Shown here piece by piece: positions 1 to 16,414 of a stretch of 64,000 nucleotides of DNA; the stretch's first letter is position 1; every line of letters starts with the position of its first letter. Source of the stretch: an uncultured Sunxiuqinia sp. (lineage in GTDB: Bacteria > Bacteroidota > Bacteroidia > Bacteroidales > Prolixibacteraceae); contig NZ_CANLZV010000019.1 in NCBI RefSeq assembly GCF_947495665.1, positions 1 through 64,000 on the forward strand, written 5' to 3'. The notes under the pieces were generated by a model, which was not told the origin of the DNA, searched no databases, and saw only the letters and a program-made list of their open reading frames with translations. Both the position numbers and the translations under genes were made by a program.

Positions 1-147
1 ATTTGATAAACGATTCAAACACGCTCCAAGTTACTGATATTCTATACTCTCCCCAAGCTCGTTGCACTCGCTTTGCCCCTCTCTTCTGGAAGAGAGGGGA
101 AGAGTCGGTGAAATCCGACAGGATTGAACATGACTCTGGGGTGAGTT
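1..147. repeat. 147-bp direct repeat, copy 1
   Basis: This stretch recurs at 1526-1672 with the same length and about a dozen or so substitutions. It contains an 11-bp perfect hairpin at 76-99 (CCCCTCTCTTC, TG loop, GAAGAGAGGGG). The repeat may extend left beyond the window. A shorter piece of the same element (ACTCTCCCCAAGCTCGTT) lies near 1459-1476. It looks like an intergenic repeat family rather than coding sequence. No transposase is associated with it. Confidence 0.8.
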
Positions 148-1823: not shown

Positions 1824-2591
1824 CTATTTTTTAAAAATTTCCCTCGAATGATATTCAAGAAACTCCTTATTTGGAGCGAACCGACTTGGTAATACTATTG
1901 TGTTATTTTCGTAAGGCAGAAAGAACTGTTCTGACTCATTATTGAGTTTTGCTTTTAGCTGATCCGATATTTTCACTCTATAGTCCGGTGTGACGGTAAT
2001 TAATCCCTTATCAAAAGCTTTGTCGTGTAGTGCATTCAGGCAAAGCCCGTTTTGTGGATTCATTCGTTCCTTTTCATTGGCTGCCCATGGTATAATATGA
2101 CTTGCAATTAATAATTCGGAAGATTGAACTCCAGTAATACAGCAGGCTTGGTTATAAGATGCTAAAATTGTCTTGCGGAAAAAACTCTGATTGACTCGTG
2201 TTCTAACAATTGCTTCCCGCTCTTTTCCTTCCTTTAACTCAGGTATGTCTGAAAGATCAATTTCGGACTCAAGTGTAACTCCTTTGTATCTGGCAAGTAT
2301 TTGCTCGCTTTCGAAAGCTAATTGATCCCAATTCCCGTGAAACTCATTCCAAACAATTTCTTCACCTTTTGCACCATGAGTTAGACCTGAAACATTCCTT
2401 GCCTTTAAGGCAGGATCAAGGCGTGCAAAATTGGCCAGTTTGTACGATACAGCTCCTTTCTTTCTCCCGATGATATTGGCTAACTCAACAACAGGAGGAT
2501 AGTTCTCGTTTATTTTGGTAAACGGGATTTTGCAATACAGGTTGAATGCAACAATATGTTCTTCTCTTGTCCAGTTCGGGTTGCGGGGCAT
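1824..2591 (-). CDS. HNH restriction-type endonuclease
   Basis: This 255-residue protein has a C-terminal HNH nuclease domain of the HNH_2 kind often seen as the restriction enzyme of m5C systems. A CCITG turn (150-154) is followed by ASHIIPW with H165, PQNGLCLN with N181, and ALHDKAFD with H189, giving the H-N-H metal and catalytic set. The N-terminal ~100 residues look like a DNA-reading module (WTREEHIVAFNLYCKIPF, then a helical IIGRKKGAVSYKLANF). The ATG starts 1 nt after the stop of the receiver gene, so it is the last gene of a translationally packed operon that begins with the controller gene near 7.48 kb. In this context it is the probable restriction nuclease partner of the methyltransferase. 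Sequence specificity cannot be read from the protein. Confidence 0.85.
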   Translation of the reverse strand: MPRNPNWTREEHIVAFNLYCKIPFTKINENYPPVVELANIIGRKKGAVSYKLANFARLDPALKARNVSGLTHGAKGEEIVWNEFHGNWDQLAFESEQILARYKGVTLESEIDLSDIPELKEGKEREAIVRTRVNQSFFRKTILASYNQACCITGVQSSELLIASHIIPWAANEKERMNPQNGLCLNALHDKAFDKGLITVTPDYRVKISDQLKAKLNNESEQFFLPYENNTIVLPSRFAPNKEFLEYHSREIFKK

Positions 2592-2592
2592 G

Positions 2593-3909
2593 CTAAAATT
2601 GAATAATCCCTAATCTACTTAGATAATTCGTATGATCTGTTATTACTTTATTTAATAGTTCATTTTTCAATCGAAAAAGAATATCTCCTAGCAACTTTGA
2701 GTTTACATCTGGAAAGCTTACAACATAACGAGAATTAAAGAAAAGATAGTGACATTTCTGGTTAAAGAAGAAAGTAGGTAAACGTGTAATTGAACTAGCC
2801 TGTGTTGTCAATAGATCAGAATCAAATTCCGGAACTAAAACCCCTAATATATAAACATAATTTCTCGGATTTGCCTGGGCATAATCGCAAGCTGCGCTAA
2901 CCTCTAACAAAACCAAAGAAGCAGAATCCTTTATCTGTCTTCTCTCTGCTTTCCTAGCCTTCCTTGAATCAAACGGTAAAAAAGAATGAAGTATCTCTTT
3001 CTGGGAAGCTCCAAAATAGGAAATCGTTTCGTCCTCACTTAAATCCCCTAAACAAACTACCACTCCCCTATCATTCTTAACTCCATGCTCGCCATTAAAA
3101 TCATAGTGATAAATTGAATTGAGCCTGCCCAACGTCAAGCTATCTATATAATTGAATTTGCTCTTTCCGTCGCATCCCAAGAGCTTTTGAAGTTTGTCAT
3201 TCCACTTAGGAGATAATTGCATTTTTCCAATCTCATTTATTAGGATTGGATTTAGTCCATCCCTAATTGCATTAAGCGGATAACTCCGAGCATTGTCGAA
3301 GCCTAAAGTTTGAAAAGCAATATTTGAGAATACCAAGTCAAAATTATCATTAAACCTATCACTATTCCCCCAAGTATCTTCTCCATTGGATACAACATTA
3401 AAAATTGTATCTAAAGACTTCCCTACTGCTTTTGAGATCTTTGTCTCATAGTCAAATAAAATCTCAATGATATCATTATCAAACACCCTAGTTATTTCCC
3501 TTTTTAAATCTTCGGGATCTCCTGTAGTCACTTTATCAATACAGTCAACCAACAGTGGCTTTGGAATACTATCTTCAGCACGCTCCTCTATATGCGCCTT
3601 AATATCTTCGACCTTATCTGTGTGGGAAGACCAAAAAATCAAGACAAATGGACCATTTTCCGCATGAATACATGCTCTAAGGGCATTCTCAAACGAAGTA
3701 ATAGTCTGCTTAGTCACATCATTACCATCCTGTAACTTTATATCAAAAAAGACTAACCTTATACCAGAAAATGGCTCAGCGGGAGGATTAGCTTGTGAGT
3801 ATAATATTGTGTATGCAGGGATATTTAGCTCGCGTAAGGCTCTATTAATCTTATCAATTTCGCGTTGCTCGTTATCCACAACTAAAACCTTTGAAATATT
3901 TTCTAACAT
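2593..3909 (-). CDS. Receiver-domain protein of the defence operon
   Basis: The first ~125 residues look like a response-regulator receiver domain. Numbered from ATG 3909, they include KVLVVDNEQ (acidic D12), LVFFDIKLQDG with likely phospho-acceptor D56, a serine pair in IFWSSH (about 94-95) and the conserved lysine in IPKP (K117). The following ~300 residues match no domain I recognise and carry no visible helix-turn-helix, so it may signal by protein contact rather than by DNA binding. The frame can be opened 9 nt upstream with TTG, but ATG 3909 lies 1 nt after the upstream stop and is preferred. The gene lies directly between the histidine-kinase-like ATPase and the HNH nuclease. I infer that it relays a phosphorylation state from the first to the second. 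Confidence 0.7.
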   Translation of the reverse strand: MLENISKVLVVDNEQREIDKINRALRELNIPAYTILYSQANPPAEPFSGIRLVFFDIKLQDGNDVTKQTITSFENALRACIHAENGPFVLIFWSSHTDKVEDIKAHIEERAEDSIPKPLLVDCIDKVTTGDPEDLKREITRVFDNDIIEILFDYETKISKAVGKSLDTIFNVVSNGEDTWGNSDRFNDNFDLVFSNIAFQTLGFDNARSYPLNAIRDGLNPILINEIGKMQLSPKWNDKLQKLLGCDGKSKFNYIDSLTLGRLNSIYHYDFNGEHGVKNDRGVVVCLGDLSEDETISYFGASQKEILHSFLPFDSRKARKAERRQIKDSASLVLLEVSAACDYAQANPRNYVYILGVLVPEFDSDLLTTQASSITRLPTFFFNQKCHYLFFNSRYVVSFPDVNSKLLGDILFRLKNELLNKVITDHTNYLSRLGIIQF

Positions 3910-3910
3910 T

Positions 3911-6034
3911 CTAATCAATTTCTGGATTAAACACTAATGCAACCACTGCCCCATTATAAGAACTAGGGATTTCTAAATCTGCAGGATTCATAAACACAAC
4001 CTCTCCACCACATAACTCCATTACCAAGCTTGTAAAGTAAAGTCCCAATCCTATTCCTCCTGGCTTAAGAGTATAAAATGGTTTTGTTATATTTTCAGTA
4101 TCCATTTTGAACCCATCACCATTGTCTGCAACAAGTATTGCTGGTCCCCTAAACTTCTCCAAATCAGTGGTAATAAGTATAGCTGGTGGAATAGACTCGT
4201 CCTTTTCAGATCTCACTGTAGACCAGTAAATAGAATTATCAATCAAATTATTTATAGCACTGAAGATCAAATTATCTGGGCCGTTGACATTAAAATCAGG
4301 AGCCTCATCCGTCAATACGGGACAAGAAAATATAATATCATGGTAGTTGAATCTCCCACTATTATGACTCTTGAGAGTTCCTAACAGTTTCTTGCAACTA
4401 AAAACAGAAGATTGATTTTGCTTTAATATCGGAGAGAACCCTTCAATTAAATTGTATAGAAACTTTATTCTTTCCCTAATATCTTCGATATCTGTTTTTC
4501 CAATATCATGGTTAATCGATTTGACCTCCCTTTGCAATTCATGGAAAACGAGACTCAAGTTCATACCAGACAAACCAGAATTTAGCATTACTTCTCTCAT
4601 TTGATTGTAATCATCTTCTATTCTCGAAATAACGTGCCTAAATTCCTTGTACAGCTTTTTCTCTTCTACTTTTGATTTTAATTCCTTAATACTTTCGGAA
4701 AACCCTGCTTTCTTTACAGGTTTGAAGCTTTTAATCTGTTCTTCGAGGGCCTCTCGATCATCCTGAATAGTTATAGCGAAGTGTTTGATTATACTTAAAC
4801 ATATATCTTTAAGCTTACGGTAAACTTCGTTCTCGTCAAACCCTTCTCTGTTTGTTTTCTCTTTTAAAAAGTCATGCGATGATTTCAGATCTAATTGAAT
4901 CGATCCTATAATATTATTATTACTAATAGTTTTCCCTGGGTTGTTTGCTCTCAGTAAATTAAGATTTAGCCAGTCATTCCCAGGCTCTCCATAGTTATAA
5001 ACCCTAAGTTTATCCCTATAAACTCGAACTCCATGGTTTTCATTCAGATATTCTTTAATGGTTTTAGTGTTATTGAATACCTTCAATATTTCTGGGCGTT
5101 GATTAAAGAGATAAAACTTGCCTTTTATCCTTCCTATTTTTTCTAGATCTTCTCCTCTATATATTTTCTTTTTTGTTTTTGATTCGGGCTTTATAAGAAT
5201 TTTGTCTTTCTTGTTTTCCTGGAAATTATTTATTGAATATCCTTTTAGCATATCAGATTTAAAGGGAGGCCTAAAGCTGTATTCCCAACTATAAGTTCCG
5301 TCCTCAGATAAATAGAAATCATATTCATATATACTGGTTCCTAATATCTTATGAGGATCAAAGATATCTTCAATCCACTCATTATATTCCTCATCAAGCA
5401 TTAATTTAACAGTAAAAGAATCTTCGGTTTGAAAAGGGCTAATGAGTGTATTCACTGTTCTGTAAATCGTCCTAATATCACCTCTTTCCCATTTCTTCTT
5501 TCTCAGGTTATTTAATGTTATCCTTGTACCATGTTTTTCACCGAGAAAGCTGAGATTCTTCTCACGCCGCAGAGTAACTTCTGTGTCTTCAATGTATTTT
5601 GCTTTGCCAATCAAACTCGGCCAATTAAAACTCAATCTAAAAGATTCATTAGTTTCTTCATCACGTGTTTCCAGGGTTATATCTGTTGCTAATTTATGCA
5701 CAGCTAAACGACCAACCCCCTTTTCCCCCAATGATTCACGACTATACTTATTGCTTATCTTTCTATTCTTACCTCTTTTAAAATCAGTCCCTATTTCGAG
5801 CCATGAATTTTCCAGGACTTCCCTTGACATCCCAACTCCATCATCTTCAATGACAATTGCAATATCTTCTTGCCCCAAATTAATAAACCGAATTTCTGCT
5901 CGAGATGCATCTGCATCGTAGGCATTTTTGACTAATTCAAATAATGCAAGATTATCACTTCCAATCAACTCATCGCCTAATAAACTTAGGATATGACTAC
6001 GTGCTTTAAAATTTGCTTTATATGATTCTGACAT
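3911..6034 (-). CDS. Histidine-kinase-like protein with two GHKL ATPase domains
   Basis: This 707-residue protein carries two Bergerat-fold ATPase modules. The N-terminal one is HSP90/MutL/MORC-like: ELVKNAYDADA with N37, DDGVGM at 64-69 and GEKGVGRLA at 103-111. The C-terminal one is sensor-kinase-like: the N-box INNLIDNSIYW (about 594-604), the G1 box DNGDGF (637-642) and the G2 box GGIGLGL (659-665). In front of the second module, FHELQREV places a candidate phospho-acceptor His at 498, after a helical stretch (about 440-480). There are no membrane segments, so sensing is cytoplasmic. Its start overlaps the methyltransferase gene by 17 nt and it stops 1 nt before the receiver gene. Fusing a MORC-like sensor to a kinase-like output inside a restriction-modification operon is unusual. 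Phosphotransfer is inferred, not shown. Confidence 0.8.
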   Translation of the reverse strand: MSESYKANFKARSHILSLLGDELIGSDNLALFELVKNAYDADASRAEIRFINLGQEDIAIVIEDDGVGMSREVLENSWLEIGTDFKRGKNRKISNKYSRESLGEKGVGRLAVHKLATDITLETRDEETNESFRLSFNWPSLIGKAKYIEDTEVTLRREKNLSFLGEKHGTRITLNNLRKKKWERGDIRTIYRTVNTLISPFQTEDSFTVKLMLDEEYNEWIEDIFDPHKILGTSIYEYDFYLSEDGTYSWEYSFRPPFKSDMLKGYSINNFQENKKDKILIKPESKTKKKIYRGEDLEKIGRIKGKFYLFNQRPEILKVFNNTKTIKEYLNENHGVRVYRDKLRVYNYGEPGNDWLNLNLLRANNPGKTISNNNIIGSIQLDLKSSHDFLKEKTNREGFDENEVYRKLKDICLSIIKHFAITIQDDREALEEQIKSFKPVKKAGFSESIKELKSKVEEKKLYKEFRHVISRIEDDYNQMREVMLNSGLSGMNLSLVFHELQREVKSINHDIGKTDIEDIRERIKFLYNLIEGFSPILKQNQSSVFSCKKLLGTLKSHNSGRFNYHDIIFSCPVLTDEAPDFNVNGPDNLIFSAINNLIDNSIYWSTVRSEKDESIPPAILITTDLEKFRGPAILVADNGDGFKMDTENITKPFYTLKPGGIGLGLYFTSLVMELCGGEVVFMNPADLEIPSSYNGAVVALVFNPEID

Positions 6035-7259
6035 TTTCTAATAAGTTACAAAGTTCGTGAGCAATCTTTTCGGCCATCAAAGGTGGCACGGCATTGCCTA
6101 TTTGCCGAAAAGCAGCGGTACGTGGTTGACTCTCTTTAATCCCTTCAAAATAATAGTCATCAGGAAATGACTGTATGCGAGCGGCTTCTCTCACAGAAAT
6201 GGACCGTAATTGTTTTTTGTCTGGATGTATGAAATGGTGTCCGTCTTTTGCTATATGGGCAATCATGGTATGGGGTTCCAATGCGACCACTTTAAACCGA
6301 TCTTTAAAATCTTCAATGTTAGCCTGAGTTCTCATGTATTCAGGTATTTGGTCATTCTTAATCCGGACTCCTTCTTCCAGTTGTTCAATCGCAAGCCGGT
6401 ATATGTCCAAATCTTTTGGGTTGTGTGGTCTGGTAATATGCTGCGTTACAAAATCAACTCCGTTTCGGATTTCAGATAGCTCCAGATATTCGTTCGTGGG
6501 AGAGGCATATTCATGAAAACGTCCCTTTTCTCCCGGTTTGATAAATGGCAAATCATTAAATATATCATTTCGGGTAAACTGATTGTCACTTGTCTCAAAG
6601 TCCGGATATTCAAATTGAAAATCTTTTTGCCATCCTATGATAATAACCCGACGTCGATTTTGAATAACCCCAAAGTCTTTTGCATTTAACATCCTGGCCT
6701 CCACAGTGTATCCCAATTGCCGGTAATACTTCTTGAGGTTTTTGTAATATTGTCCGTCTGCAGCTGTCAAAATTCCGGGAACATTTTCAAAAACAAACAT
6801 TTTGGGTTTGTATCTTTTTAGATACCTTCCATAGTGAATGTAAAGAGTTGTTCGTTCGTCGTTTTCCTTATGTTTTAGTGGTGCACGGCCAACAACCGAA
6901 TAAGCCTGACATGGTGGTCCTCCAATAATTAAATCAACAATTCTGTCTCCCTTCAAATTATCGATCTGACTAAATATCTGCTCATTCGTTTCATCTCCAA
7001 TAGGCAAATTAATAACTGATTCTCTTTTTTCCCTAGGTAACAAGCTGTAAAGTTCTTCTCTGGAAACTCCTTCCCCTTTTATATAAGCCAGGTATTTCTT
7101 AAAATCAGGCGTATTTTTCAAGTGATGATATGCAGTCCTCGTCAATAATGTATTGCATGCTGCTTTATCCATTTCAACGTGAGCAATTGGAGTAAAGTCT
7201 GCACGAATAAAACCTTCAGAAAGGCCACCAGCTCCTGCAAATAAATCTATAAAGTTCAT
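6018..7259 (-). CDS. dcm: DNA (cytosine-5-)-methyltransferase
   Basis: This 413-residue enzyme has the standard m5C methyltransferase motifs in order: motif I FIDLFAGAGGLSEGF (3-17, SAM binding), motif IV GGPPCQ (113-118) with catalytic C117, motif VI ENVPG (158-162), motif VIII QNRRRV (200-205), motif IX REAARIQSFPDDY, and motif X RQIGNAVPP near the end. It would transfer methyl from SAM to C5 of cytosine in the recognition site of the system. The start ATG overlaps the stop of the controller gene as ATGA, and the 3' end overlaps the ATPase gene by 17 nt, which shows a single operon. The target-recognition region between motifs VIII and IX gives no readable specificity. Confidence 0.95.
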   Translation of the reverse strand: MNFIDLFAGAGGLSEGFIRADFTPIAHVEMDKAACNTLLTRTAYHHLKNTPDFKKYLAYIKGEGVSREELYSLLPREKRESVINLPIGDETNEQIFSQIDNLKGDRIVDLIIGGPPCQAYSVVGRAPLKHKENDERTTLYIHYGRYLKRYKPKMFVFENVPGILTAADGQYYKNLKKYYRQLGYTVEARMLNAKDFGVIQNRRRVIIIGWQKDFQFEYPDFETSDNQFTRNDIFNDLPFIKPGEKGRFHEYASPTNEYLELSEIRNGVDFVTQHITRPHNPKDLDIYRLAIEQLEEGVRIKNDQIPEYMRTQANIEDFKDRFKVVALEPHTMIAHIAKDGHHFIHPDKKQLRSISVREAARIQSFPDDYYFEGIKESQPRTAAFRQIGNAVPPLMAEKIAHELCNLLENVRII

Positions 7260-7483
7260 TTTGATTTTGCGTTATCATAACCTTTAAAAAAATCCTCAAA
7301 GGTTGTATCCAAGGCACGAATAATCTTATCAATAAGGATGATAGACACGTTTCTTCTTCCATTCTCGACACTTGTTATATAGGTTCGATCAATCTCTGCT
7401 TTCAATGCTAACTGCTCTTGCGAAAGCTTTTTATGAAGTCTTAATTCCCTGATACGCAAACCTATTTTTCGTCTAGCATCCAT
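7256..7483 (-). CDS. XRE-family controller (C) protein of the restriction-modification operon
   Basis: This 75-residue protein is almost entirely a helix-turn-helix of the Cro/C1/XRE type: GLRIRELRLHKKLSQEQLA, then DRTYITSVENGRRNVSI. Its size and position fit C proteins, which time expression of methylase and nuclease in type II systems. A longer frame with a start at 7534 exists. I chose ATG 7483 because that residue begins the usual C-protein N-terminus (MDARRKIG) and because a TTG-N20-TACATTTA promoter ends only 5 nt before it, predicting a leaderless transcript. The longer start would lie inside the operator. The stop overlaps the methyltransferase ATG (ATGA). Confidence 0.85.
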   Translation of the reverse strand: MDARRKIGLRIRELRLHKKLSQEQLALKAEIDRTYITSVENGRRNVSIILIDKIIRALDTTFEDFFKGYDNAKSK

Positions 7484-7488
7484 GCCTC

Positions 7489-7519
7489 TAAATGTATTTT
7501 TATGTTGACTACTGCACAA
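7489..7519 (-). promoter_or_regulatory. Predicted promoter of the C-dcm-kinase-receiver-HNH operon
   Basis: Reading the minus strand, TTG (7519-7517) is followed by 20 nt and TACATTTA (7496-7489). This is close to the Bacteroidota promoter form TTG-N17-23-TAnnTTTG, with A for the last G. Transcription would begin at or next to ATG 7483, giving a leaderless message. No start-site data were used. Confidence 0.5.
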
Positions 7520-7521
7520 CG

Positions 7522-7563
7522 GACTATGAGTCACAATCCGTAAGGCGCAACGGACTATGAATC
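7522..7563. promoter_or_regulatory. Two C-box-like operators
   Basis: GACTATGAGTC (7522-7532) and GACTATGAATC (7553-7563) match the GACTnnnAGTC form of known C-protein operators, the first perfectly. Their centres are 31 bp apart, about three helical turns, and each is embedded in a longer repeat (CAACGGACTATGA). The first box abuts the predicted -33 TTG of the operon promoter, a position suited to activation and autoregulation by the adjacent C protein. Confidence 0.6.
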
Positions 7564-7631
7564 ACACGTGCTTTTTTTTCAACACATTATAAAAACTTTC
7601 AGAAATGGATAGTAGCTTCAGGAAGATCAAA

Positions 7632-8045
7632 TTAGCCTTTGATCTCCACAATTAATTGTTGGAATGTCTGTTCCCTTTTATCAGACTTCAACTCACATTC
7701 CCAAACGGTAATCACTTTCCAGCCTGCGACGTTAAGCGCAATTTCTTTTTCCTTGTCGCGTTTTTGGGTGTTTTTAATTTTCCGGAGCCACCATTCGGTA
7801 TTGGTTTTTGGGAGGGTAAAATAACGACATCCTTTGTGTCCATGCCAAAAGCAGCCGTTTACAAAAATGACGGTTTTATACTTGGGTAGTACAATATCCG
7901 GTTTCCCTGGCAGGTCTTTCACATTCAGCCGATAGCGAAAACCACGAGCAAAGAGGTACTTCCGAACCACGATTTCAGGTTTGGTGTTCTTCCCCTTAAT
8001 CCGGCTCATATTGTAACTTCTCGTTTTCGGATCATGTACATCCAT
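7632..8045 (-). CDS. vsr: Very short patch repair (Vsr) endonuclease
   Basis: This 137-residue protein has the full Vsr layout: an N-terminal MSRIKGKNTKPE segment, GKPDIV with catalytic D50, VNGCFWHGH with H68 in the active site, zinc-ligand-type cysteines (C65 and C73), and a C-terminal GWKVITVWECEL. Vsr nicks beside T in T:G mismatches that arise when 5-methylcytosine deaminates, so it protects the genome from the mutagenic effect of the neighbouring methyltransferase. The gene lies on the same strand, upstream of the controller gene, with about 150 bp between them. That gap contains the C-boxes and operon promoter, so vsr is probably transcribed separately. Confidence 0.95.
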   Translation of the reverse strand: MDVHDPKTRSYNMSRIKGKNTKPEIVVRKYLFARGFRYRLNVKDLPGKPDIVLPKYKTVIFVNGCFWHGHKGCRYFTLPKTNTEWWLRKIKNTQKRDKEKEIALNVAGWKVITVWECELKSDKREQTFQQLIVEIKG

Positions 8046-13974: not shown

Positions 13975-16356
13975 TCATCCAGTGTAACTAGGGCTGGAAT
14001 CAAAGTAGTAATAACTACTTTTTCTTTTATAGCTGTAGTCAGCTCCATATGCTCCAACATGCGCATGTTTAGAAAGGTGGATATCATTCAGAATAATTCC
14101 GGCATTCTTCATGGATTTCTTTTTATGCACATGATCTATGAATTTAATTTCATTTTTCTTGCTATAGTCCTGCCGCATGACAAACAGGTTGATGTCCACC
14201 TTTTGCCCGATAATGATTCCATCAGACACAATGGATAAAGGAGGATTGTCGAAAACAATGTAATCGAACAACTCCCGACACCGGTTAATCAATTCCTCAA
14301 ACTTGCCATTTTCAAGCAATTCCGACGGATTGGGAGGAATCGGTCCTGCGGAGATAAACTGCAGGTTCTCTACACGGGTTTGCCGGAAGATTTCATCAAA
14401 CGAACTAAAGTCCGTCAGATACGTACTGAGTCCTTCTTTATTTTTATACTTAAGCCGGTTGTGTAAGCTTGGTTTGCGTAAATCACAATCCACCAAAAGC
14501 ACTTTCTTATTATTCAAAGCAATCATGGAAGCCAGGTTGGCCGAGGTGAATGATTTTCCTTCACCGGAAATTACAGAGTTTACCCCAATGATGATTGTCC
14601 CGTCCTTTTTTCTCGGTCCAACGAACTGCAGGTTGGTTCGCAATTCCCTGAACGATTCCGCAATAGCCGACCGTGGGTTGTCAATAGCAGCCAAATACTC
14701 GCTGCTTACATTGGCATTCACAATATTACCAATCACCGGAATATCACTATACTCTTCCACATCCTCGGCTGATTTTATCCGGTCGTAGAAATAAGTCCCC
14801 AACATCAACACAACAAAAGGCACAAATAAACCACCAAACATTCCGGCAGCCACATTGATCATCAAATTCGGTCCAAGTCGTACCGCCAACTCAGGTCTGG
14901 CCTGATCCAGTACTTCCGTATCCGAAACATTGGAAGCATGTGTGATCGCTGCTTCTGCCCGCTTCTTCAGCAAGAAAGTATACAGTTCATTATTCAAATC
15001 ATACATGCGCTGCATGTTCATCATTTGCTGCTCCGTTTTCGGGTAGGCTGTCAACTGTTGGTTCACTTTATCAATGCGTCGATCCAATCCCTGCACCTGA
15101 ATAATGGCATTATTGATCAGGTTCTTCAGATTTTCCTGAAGGTTTCTTTTCACCATGTCAATCTGGTTACCAATCAAGATCAGTTTGGGGTTTTTCTCTT
15201 GAGCCGTATAGGAAATAACTTCCCGCGAACGATATAAGTCGCTAAGTTGAACGACCAAGCTATTCAGTGATTCATCCACGATTCCAACGACCGAAGGAGC
15301 AACCACCTCCTTCATCTTCTCGGTATCATTTAAATATTTCTGAAGATTCCGGTAATAATCCAGATGTGACTGAATCATGGACCGTTCGGTATCTAAATCT
15401 ACCAACTTCTGCACGATAATCCCTCCTTCCTGGCTCATGTCAACAATTTGGTTCCGCGACCGGAAAGAAGTAAAGTTATTGCCCGCCACTTTCAAGGTAT
15501 CAATCACATCTTTAAGTTGCGAATCGATAAAATTCACGGTGGTTTCGGAGGTATGGTTCTTGGCCCGCAACTCATACGCCAGATACACTGAACTCAGTTC
15601 ATTCAGGTAGTCGGCTCCTTTTTCCGGAACATTATCTTCAAGGGTCAGACTAATCAAATCGGCCTTTTCTACCAACTCTTCAATGACCAGTCTTCCCCTA
15701 TAATCTTTCACCAGCTGGTCGAGGTTGTTAAACGTAAAAAAGTATTGTTCATCCCGACTGGCTGTCTTTGGATATAAGGTGAAGTTAAAATAGTCATTTG
15801 AAAAAGGTTCCCCGTAAGTTCCCCTATCCTTGAATTTAATTTCTACTTCTCGCCCATAAAGCCACGTTTTGGCATCAACGACAAGCTCGTAATTCGTTGA
15901 ATCCAGCATATGCACATGAATGGGAACTCCTTCCAAGTTGGTTGCAGTACGATCATACAAAACATCAAAAGGCTCATTGCCATACAACTCATTATCCCGA
16001 AACATCATTTCCTGATACCAACTTGTTGACCAATCCAAATTTTCCAAAACCCGGCGATTGATCGAATAAGAAGTCAAAATTCCAATATGATTTTGCAGAT
16101 TGATATTTCCTCCCATTGATCCGGCAAATGGCAGATCCATTTTGAGTTGGTTATTTTCTTTATCCTTAATCAGAAACAAACTTTGCAACTGATAAGACGG
16201 GGAGGTTATTTGGGTAAATAAATACCCCAAACCTGCTCCGATAAAGCCCACAAACATAAACCAATACCAGTTTCGCTTCAGTTTATGAATGAACTTTTTT
16301 ACAGCAAGCATGTCCTCCCTTTCCAATGAATTGGAGAATTCTTCCATCGTTTTCAT
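13975..16356 (-). CDS. wzc: Wzc-like polysaccharide co-polymerase / tyrosine kinase
   Basis: This 793-residue inner-membrane protein governs chain length and export. An N-terminal Wzz domain follows the first membrane helix (WYWFMFVGFIGAGLGYLF, about 30-50). A long periplasmic coiled-coil region runs to a second helix (about 515-540), and a cytoplasmic BY-kinase domain follows. The kinase has Walker A SGEGKS (about 597-602), Walker A' LLVDCDLRKP (about 620) and Walker B YIVFDNPP (about 699). The tail carries seven tyrosines within its last ~24 residues, the usual autophosphorylation cluster. ATG 16356 is preferred over a TTG two codons upstream. It is the last gene of the proximal block, behind the Wza-like gene. 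Confidence 0.93.
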   Translation of the reverse strand: MKTMEEFSNSLEREDMLAVKKFIHKLKRNWYWFMFVGFIGAGLGYLFTQITSPSYQLQSLFLIKDKENNQLKMDLPFAGSMGGNINLQNHIGILTSYSINRRVLENLDWSTSWYQEMMFRDNELYGNEPFDVLYDRTATNLEGVPIHVHMLDSTNYELVVDAKTWLYGREVEIKFKDRGTYGEPFSNDYFNFTLYPKTASRDEQYFFTFNNLDQLVKDYRGRLVIEELVEKADLISLTLEDNVPEKGADYLNELSSVYLAYELRAKNHTSETTVNFIDSQLKDVIDTLKVAGNNFTSFRSRNQIVDMSQEGGIIVQKLVDLDTERSMIQSHLDYYRNLQKYLNDTEKMKEVVAPSVVGIVDESLNSLVVQLSDLYRSREVISYTAQEKNPKLILIGNQIDMVKRNLQENLKNLINNAIIQVQGLDRRIDKVNQQLTAYPKTEQQMMNMQRMYDLNNELYTFLLKKRAEAAITHASNVSDTEVLDQARPELAVRLGPNLMINVAAGMFGGLFVPFVVLMLGTYFYDRIKSAEDVEEYSDIPVIGNIVNANVSSEYLAAIDNPRSAIAESFRELRTNLQFVGPRKKDGTIIIGVNSVISGEGKSFTSANLASMIALNNKKVLLVDCDLRKPSLHNRLKYKNKEGLSTYLTDFSSFDEIFRQTRVENLQFISAGPIPPNPSELLENGKFEELINRCRELFDYIVFDNPPLSIVSDGIIIGQKVDINLFVMRQDYSKKNEIKFIDHVHKKKSMKNAGIILNDIHLSKHAHVGAYGADYSYKRKSSYYYFDSSPSYTG

Positions 16357-16414
16357 AGACAAAATCTTTACTTAAATATTTAAAAAAACTCATGCCTGGT
16401 TAATTCATTCTGCC

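Follow-up and report, generated by a model that had tools for sequence, protein, structure and literature searches.

A six-gene operon from an uncultured Sunxiuqinia sp., lying in a 64,000-nt stretch of contig NZ_CANLZV010000019.1 (the window; host assembly 4.73 Mb in 70 contigs), is read here, with a probability of roughly one half, as a C-protein-type 5-methylcytosine (m5C) 'restriction-linked two-component' locus, in which a methyltransferase and a kinase-receiver pair would form the core and an HNH nuclease would be optional, through a mechanism that we infer. All six open reading frames (ORFs) are on the minus strand, in the order vsr, C-type helix-turn-helix (HTH) gene, m5C methyltransferase, kinase with two ATPase domains, receiver and HNH_2 nuclease. 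The kinase-receiver pair, rather than the neighbouring nuclease, may be the constant defence arm of such loci. Linkage of these genes, conservation of the phosphorelay residues and replacement of one module by another at a common chromosomal slot are directly observed.

Scanning of genome contigs with the kinase alignment returned 346 relatives, the best 80 of which were examined, with neighbour counts taken from tblastn (four of the stretches end 1.5 kb or less downstream of the kinase). The receiver lies directly downstream of the kinase in 79 of these 80 loci, the exception being L061, and Vsr lies within the examined stretch in 47. The pair is mostly accompanied by an m5C methyltransferase within that stretch (68/80) and mostly lacks the window-type HNH nuclease (1/80, L020) that a preliminary description of the window had taken it to switch. 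Neighbouring nucleases are variable and include EcoRII-C (L058 and L080), PDDEXK_7 (L046), an EcoO109I-like stretch (L033), and AspBHI-N/Mrr in a nine-locus cluster of which two members were checked; a GmrSD_N match in a neighbour at L025 fell below cut-off. Methyltransferase-kinase-receiver units with no linked nuclease also exist (L023 is one), and several pairs are nuclease-free among the scanned neighbours, absence having been assessed with Pfam or PADLOC in a selection of neighbours and judged by eye for some flanks of L022 and L024. The survey gives no support to HNH as an obligate partner. A quick kinase tree with 80 rows (window included, L083 left out) places the window in an 18-member clade with full support by the SH-like approximate likelihood ratio test (SH-aLRT), and in 13 of the 18 members a same-strand methyltransferase of about 410 aa immediately precedes the kinase. 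The class labels come from an ORF-based map, in which longer antisense frames displaced some real genes: the kinase of L083, whose aligned stretch contains no stop, the receivers of L060 and L073, and hpf in L171. On this tree methyltransferase class undergoes 16 changes, against 26-37 in 300 shuffles, and Vsr presence 24, against 20-33: the methyltransferase is tied to the kinase-receiver pair, and Vsr is exchanged freely.

Replacement is most direct at the Flavobacterium-type slot between asmA and hpf, where a methylase-kinase-receiver unit stands in place of the methylase plus EcoRII or MvaI/BcnI enzyme of other genomes, and where the HNH gene sits alone, without methyltransferase or pair, in three genomes (L164, L169 and L171). 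For this comparison 61 genomes were searched, of which 34 had hpf and 10 were read across the slot. Elsewhere the HNH gene stands beside Vsr without methyltransferase or pair (L101), or without either (L102). No empty asmA-hpf site was shown among 30 hpf loci with 1.5-kb flanks; L140 was the one locus among them with asmA nearby, about 1.1 kb off, and its genome has HNH there (L169). The asmA-like-hpf interval holds at least seven kinds of restriction or other defence-like modules in 12 loci (L023, L129 and L164-L173).

Conservation within the pair was judged from alignments that comprise, with the window, 59 kinases and 71 receivers, near-duplicates and short receivers being excluded. The kinase-like protein (707 aa; 3911..6034, minus strand), delimited by hidden Markov models (HMMs), joins a paraMORC-type HATPase_c_3 half, an H-box and a C-terminal HATPase_c part, a combination of HATPase_c_3 and HATPase_c in one kinase that is also that of the HEF_HK class. 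Its N-terminal GHKL ATPase domain (aa 28-137; 5624..5953, minus; HATPase_c_3, 8.7e-21) keeps E33, N37, D64, G66 and G68 in all 59 aligned kinases. The H-box, F497-H498-E499, retains its H-E pair in every one of them, and the invariant H498 (codon 4541..4543, minus) is the candidate phospho-acceptor; two HATPase_c stretches were matched in the protein, and kinase-type HMM matches lie at aa 570-700. The receiver (438 aa; 2593..3909, minus) consists of a REC-like domain, a helical linker and an output domain in a structure model with a predicted local distance difference test score (pLDDT) of 92. A standard Pfam receiver it is not, as no Pfam receiver model matched in the HMM search. Its identity as a receiver is argued from the structure model, from weak Foldseek matches and from D12, D56, S/T94 and K126: D12, D56, W93 and K126 occur in 71 of 71 receivers, with S or T at position 94, and the full model has a single Foldseek match with E of 0.001 or less, to the response regulator PorX, within a set of matches in which response regulators occur alongside flavodoxins and fusion chains. 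D56 (codon 3742..3744, minus) is the candidate acceptor on this side. The phosphorelay residues of the window-type pair are thus intact, and H498 and D56 lie where the preliminary description had put them (codons 4543-4541 and 3744-3742).

The output domain (aa 252-438; 2593..3156, minus) provides a lead on how the receiver might act. Modelled in isolation (pLDDT 94) and compared by Foldseek, it has MazF-mt1 chains at ranks 1-5 in the PDB library (prob 0.84-0.99, E 5.5e-3 to 7.6e-2) and further MazF at ranks 7 and 43, the other listed rows having prob of 0.18 or less; in BFVD (prob 0.97-1.00), PemK, MazF or endoribonuclease entries occupy ranks 1, 2 and 4, with an unnamed one at rank 3. Conserved residues are C341 (71/71), D342 (70), R432 and G434 (69 each) and Q345 (62), together with N264 and G282, a set other than the one that is invariant among 15 PemK-family proteins. 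The domain may therefore be a PemK/MazF-like barrel with an altered functional centre, which is a lead and not a proof. A comparison with Response_reg_2 proteins (hhalign 39.6%, E 3e-4) weakly suggests that the same output domain may occur across that family.

The remaining genes frame the pair. Uppermost is vsr (137 aa; 7632..8045, minus), a very-short-patch mismatch endonuclease (PF03852, 3.4e-35; TIGR00632 above cut-off), separated by 97 nt from the C-type controller (7256..7534, minus; HTH_3, PF01381, 7e-15; PADLOC Control_protein, 2e-18). For a C protein, with a length of about 75 aa, translation is likelier to start at 7483 than at 7534. Ahead of the HTH gene are two C-box-like sites: GATTCATAGTC (7553..7563, minus), with one mismatch to what we take to be the C-box consensus, GACTNNNAGTC, and GACTCATAGTC (7522..7532, minus), the sole exact match to GACTNNNAGTC in the window. 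The DrmMII-like m5C methyltransferase (413 aa; 6018..7259, minus; PF00145, DNA_methylase, 8.2e-66; PADLOC DrmMII, 1.1e-154) is also above cut-off for TIGR00675 and contains the PCQ and ENV motifs of m5C methyltransferases. It and vsr are the single DNA_methylase gene and the single Vsr detected in the host genome. The HNH_2 nuclease (255 aa; 1824..2591, minus; PF13391, 8.2e-14; PADLOC HNH PDLC04132, 1.2e-88) has an N-terminal stretch without a Pfam domain. HTH gene and methyltransferase overlap by 4 nt (ATGA) and methyltransferase and kinase by 17 nt, and a 1-nt gap separates kinase and receiver if the latter starts at the ATG at 3909, which becomes an 8-nt overlap with the TTG-started frame that begins at 3918; receiver and HNH gene are again 1 nt apart. 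ORFs and HMMs thereby bore out the gene content, order, junctions and upstream vsr of the preliminary description. Because Prolixibacter bellariivorans (L020) has the identical six-gene order (identities of 79% for vsr, 69% for HTH, 79% for methyltransferase, 71% for kinase, 52% for receiver and 80% for HNH), and tens of genomes keep the core, chance packing of the genes is ruled out.

Several further observations concern the surroundings and carriage of such genes. A 147-nt repeat, 90% identical, lies at window positions 1-147 and 1526-1672, downstream of the HNH gene, and its core has 12 matches in the host genome, six of them clustered on contig C6. At 13975-16362 a 795-aa ORF resembles, by eye, a Wzc-type chain-length protein with a tyrosine-kinase-like domain, and exopolysaccharide genes may come after it. 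Seven plasmid records carry kinase relatives; of the two that were read, on a Rhizobium plasmid the kinase-receiver pair is accompanied by dcm, vsr and a type II enzyme, on a Burkholderia plasmid by vsr and a cytosine methyltransferase. Against these seven stands one unannotated 5.5-kb phage record, and the pair was rejected as phage-borne. In two Acinetobacter loci, L070 and L094, transposition genes stand upstream of the methyltransferase-kinase-receiver unit (identified by Pfam as TniB and TniQ in L070, with related neighbours in L094), which suggests Tn7/Tn5053-like carriage. One ORF at L130:2808-4448, upstream of a kinase-receiver pair, matches both the Vsr and the methyltransferase of the window and is likely, judged by these matches, a Vsr-methylase fusion. 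In a Pedobacter locus (L021:11431-13626), matches to Dazbog DzbA and DzbB directly follow the receiver.

The central idea is already published, since two papers describe such associations. Bellieny-Rabelo et al. (2021, PMC8011034) report 644 regions with restriction-linked kinase/receiver pairs and find C5-methylases, Vsr and HNH_2 nucleases linked to them, HNH_2 being the best-represented nuclease near HEF_HK/Response_reg_2 pairs; they suggest that signalling controls restriction-modification, whether directly or indirectly. In the portion available, Iyer et al. (2008, PMC2292703) describe restriction operons in which MORC/paraMORC ATPases occur together with genes for cytosine methylases, Vsr and HNH proteins. 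The pair is accordingly less novel than the preliminary description, which called it not a standard type, had supposed. The kinase scores 13.2 bits against the HEF_HK model PF19191 (cut-off 24.1), none of the 71 receivers matches Response_reg_2 (PF19192) at E up to 0.01, and the host genome shows no match to that model, yet profile comparisons with the canonical families gave 99.4% over the H-box and kinase ATPase and 92.4% over the REC part. Among 296 genomes from the phylum, seven exceed the Response_reg_2 cut-off (14 have a match with E of 0.001 or less) and seven have the window receiver type, its own genome included, with no genome in both sets. On such profile evidence the window pair is placed as a remote sister clade of HEF_HK/Response_reg_2, outside both Pfam models, and kinship of the operon to the published class is well supported: a HATPase_c_3, H-box and HATPase_c kinase, adjacent receiver, upstream C5-methylase, Vsr and HNH_2 are common to both, whereas window receivers are about 440 aa and the open frames of the seven genomes that exceed the PF19192 cut-off are 526-580 aa.

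Other systems are less close. In the paraMORC/MORC operons, too, an N-terminal GHKL ATPase accompanies genes for cytosine methylase, Vsr and HNH, but, as far as the available part of PMC2292703 goes, the window has in addition a second ATPase domain, of the kinase type, together with an H-box and a receiver partner, and its operon is without a helicase. Type II restriction-modification with a C protein and Vsr shares the C-type HTH, C-box-like sites, m5C methyltransferase, Vsr and nuclease, but in the window the pair is inserted between methyltransferase and nuclease and in relatives it takes the nuclease's place. Detocs (PMC11249213) is another case of two-component signalling in anti-phage defence, but it has three genes, its best-described effector is an ATP-cleaving PNP and its glossary entry names no methylase, so that identity with it was rejected. 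The GHKL kinase of CapK/CapS, in the part of PMC13373217 consulted, answers DNA damage or single-stranded DNA and acts on a partner beside immune operons, but it phosphorylates a serine of a STAS-wHTH repressor and has no receiver domain. No functional test of restriction-linked pairs was found in PMC8011034 or the available portion of PMC2292703, and the open-access PMC literature (bioRxiv preprints lying outside this scope) yielded no experiment on their function, no link of a receiver to the PemK/MazF fold and no slot comparison of the present kind.

In the favoured explanation, the methyltransferase would mark self DNA, and the MutL/MORC-type ATPase half of the kinase would sense the DNA or nucleoprotein state of unmodified or invading DNA. 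The kinase would then autophosphorylate on H498 and pass the phosphate to D56 of the receiver, a transfer proposed because both residues are invariant and the genes paired. The receiver would act through its PemK/MazF-like-fold domain, either as direct effector or as recruiter of a nuclease, with HNH_2 an optional, swappable nuclease coupled downstream rather than an obligate output, and Vsr, as is usual for its family, would repair T:G mismatches left by m5C deamination. A bolder version can be put forward tentatively, namely a nuclease-free system in which the pair is the restriction half and m5C methylation serves as antidote. Unmodified or damaged DNA would be read by the MORC-like kinase, and a phospho-switched receiver, with an output domain of PemK/MazF fold and a changed conserved centre (C-D-x-x-Q and R-x-G), would trigger an abortive response, with HNH, EcoRII and AspBHI types as optional add-ons.

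Several results weigh against these proposals. Frequencies lean to close kin because the best 80 of 346 relatives were examined, no methyltransferase was seen within the examined stretch in 12 of the 80, and a nuclease serving the nuclease-free units could lie elsewhere in those genomes. Residue 13 of the window receiver is N rather than D (N in 9/71), and its metal binding may therefore differ. Although the fold matches top two libraries, TM-scores are 0.35-0.44 by query with root-mean-square deviations (rmsd) of 6.8-8.9 A, and the output domain has no PDB fold match at E 0.001 by Foldseek, no PDB sequence match at E up to 10, 0.3% by hhalign against the 15 PemK-family proteins and no match to PF02452 in any of the 71 receivers. 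RNase activity is consequently unproven, and a standard RNase was rejected, the likeness being one of fold with negative sequence tests.

The preliminary description proposed that the phosphorylated receiver switches on the HNH nuclease, the operon's restriction enzyme, after phage or DNA sensing. Its restriction-modification operon with a conserved phosphorelay pair stands; the switch is weakened and appears doubtful, given a window-type HNH partner in a single surveyed locus, HNH alone in the three slot genomes and apart from methyltransferase and pair at L101 and L102, and several pairs without a nuclease among the scanned neighbours. The pattern that the preliminary description named as refuting it, ATPase and receiver mostly apart from the methylase and HNH genes, is half realised: it holds for HNH and fails for the methylase. 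A real HNH link is nonetheless favoured, to the detriment of the optional-nuclease explanation, by the 1-nt junction in the window (2 nt in L020) and by recurrence of the methyltransferase-kinase-receiver-HNH order with canonical HEF_HK-RR2 pairs in L128 (HNH 47% identical) and, with a more distant HNH, in L132 (35% over 147 aa), as well as by the prominence of HNH_2 in PMC8011034. Somewhat less likely still is a MORC/MutL-like DNA-looping ATPase complex of kinase and receiver, in which phosphorylation at most times assembly with any nuclease present; the paraMORC-type half fits such a complex, but the invariant H498 and D56/K126 would be superfluous for looping alone. An ordinary two-component regulator of methyltransferase and nuclease gene expression, which the control over restriction-modification suggested in PMC8011034 would accommodate, is improbable, as a C protein and C-box-like sites already belong to the operon and neither Pfam nor Foldseek matches the output domain to a known DNA-binding domain.

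Taken with the output-fold lead, the slot comparison turns the 'function unknown' of restriction-linked two-component pairs into a testable question. If the bare methyltransferase-kinase-receiver unit restricts, and if the receiver's output domain acts on RNA, DNA or a partner, restriction-modification and two-component signalling would be joined in a self-contained immune unit.
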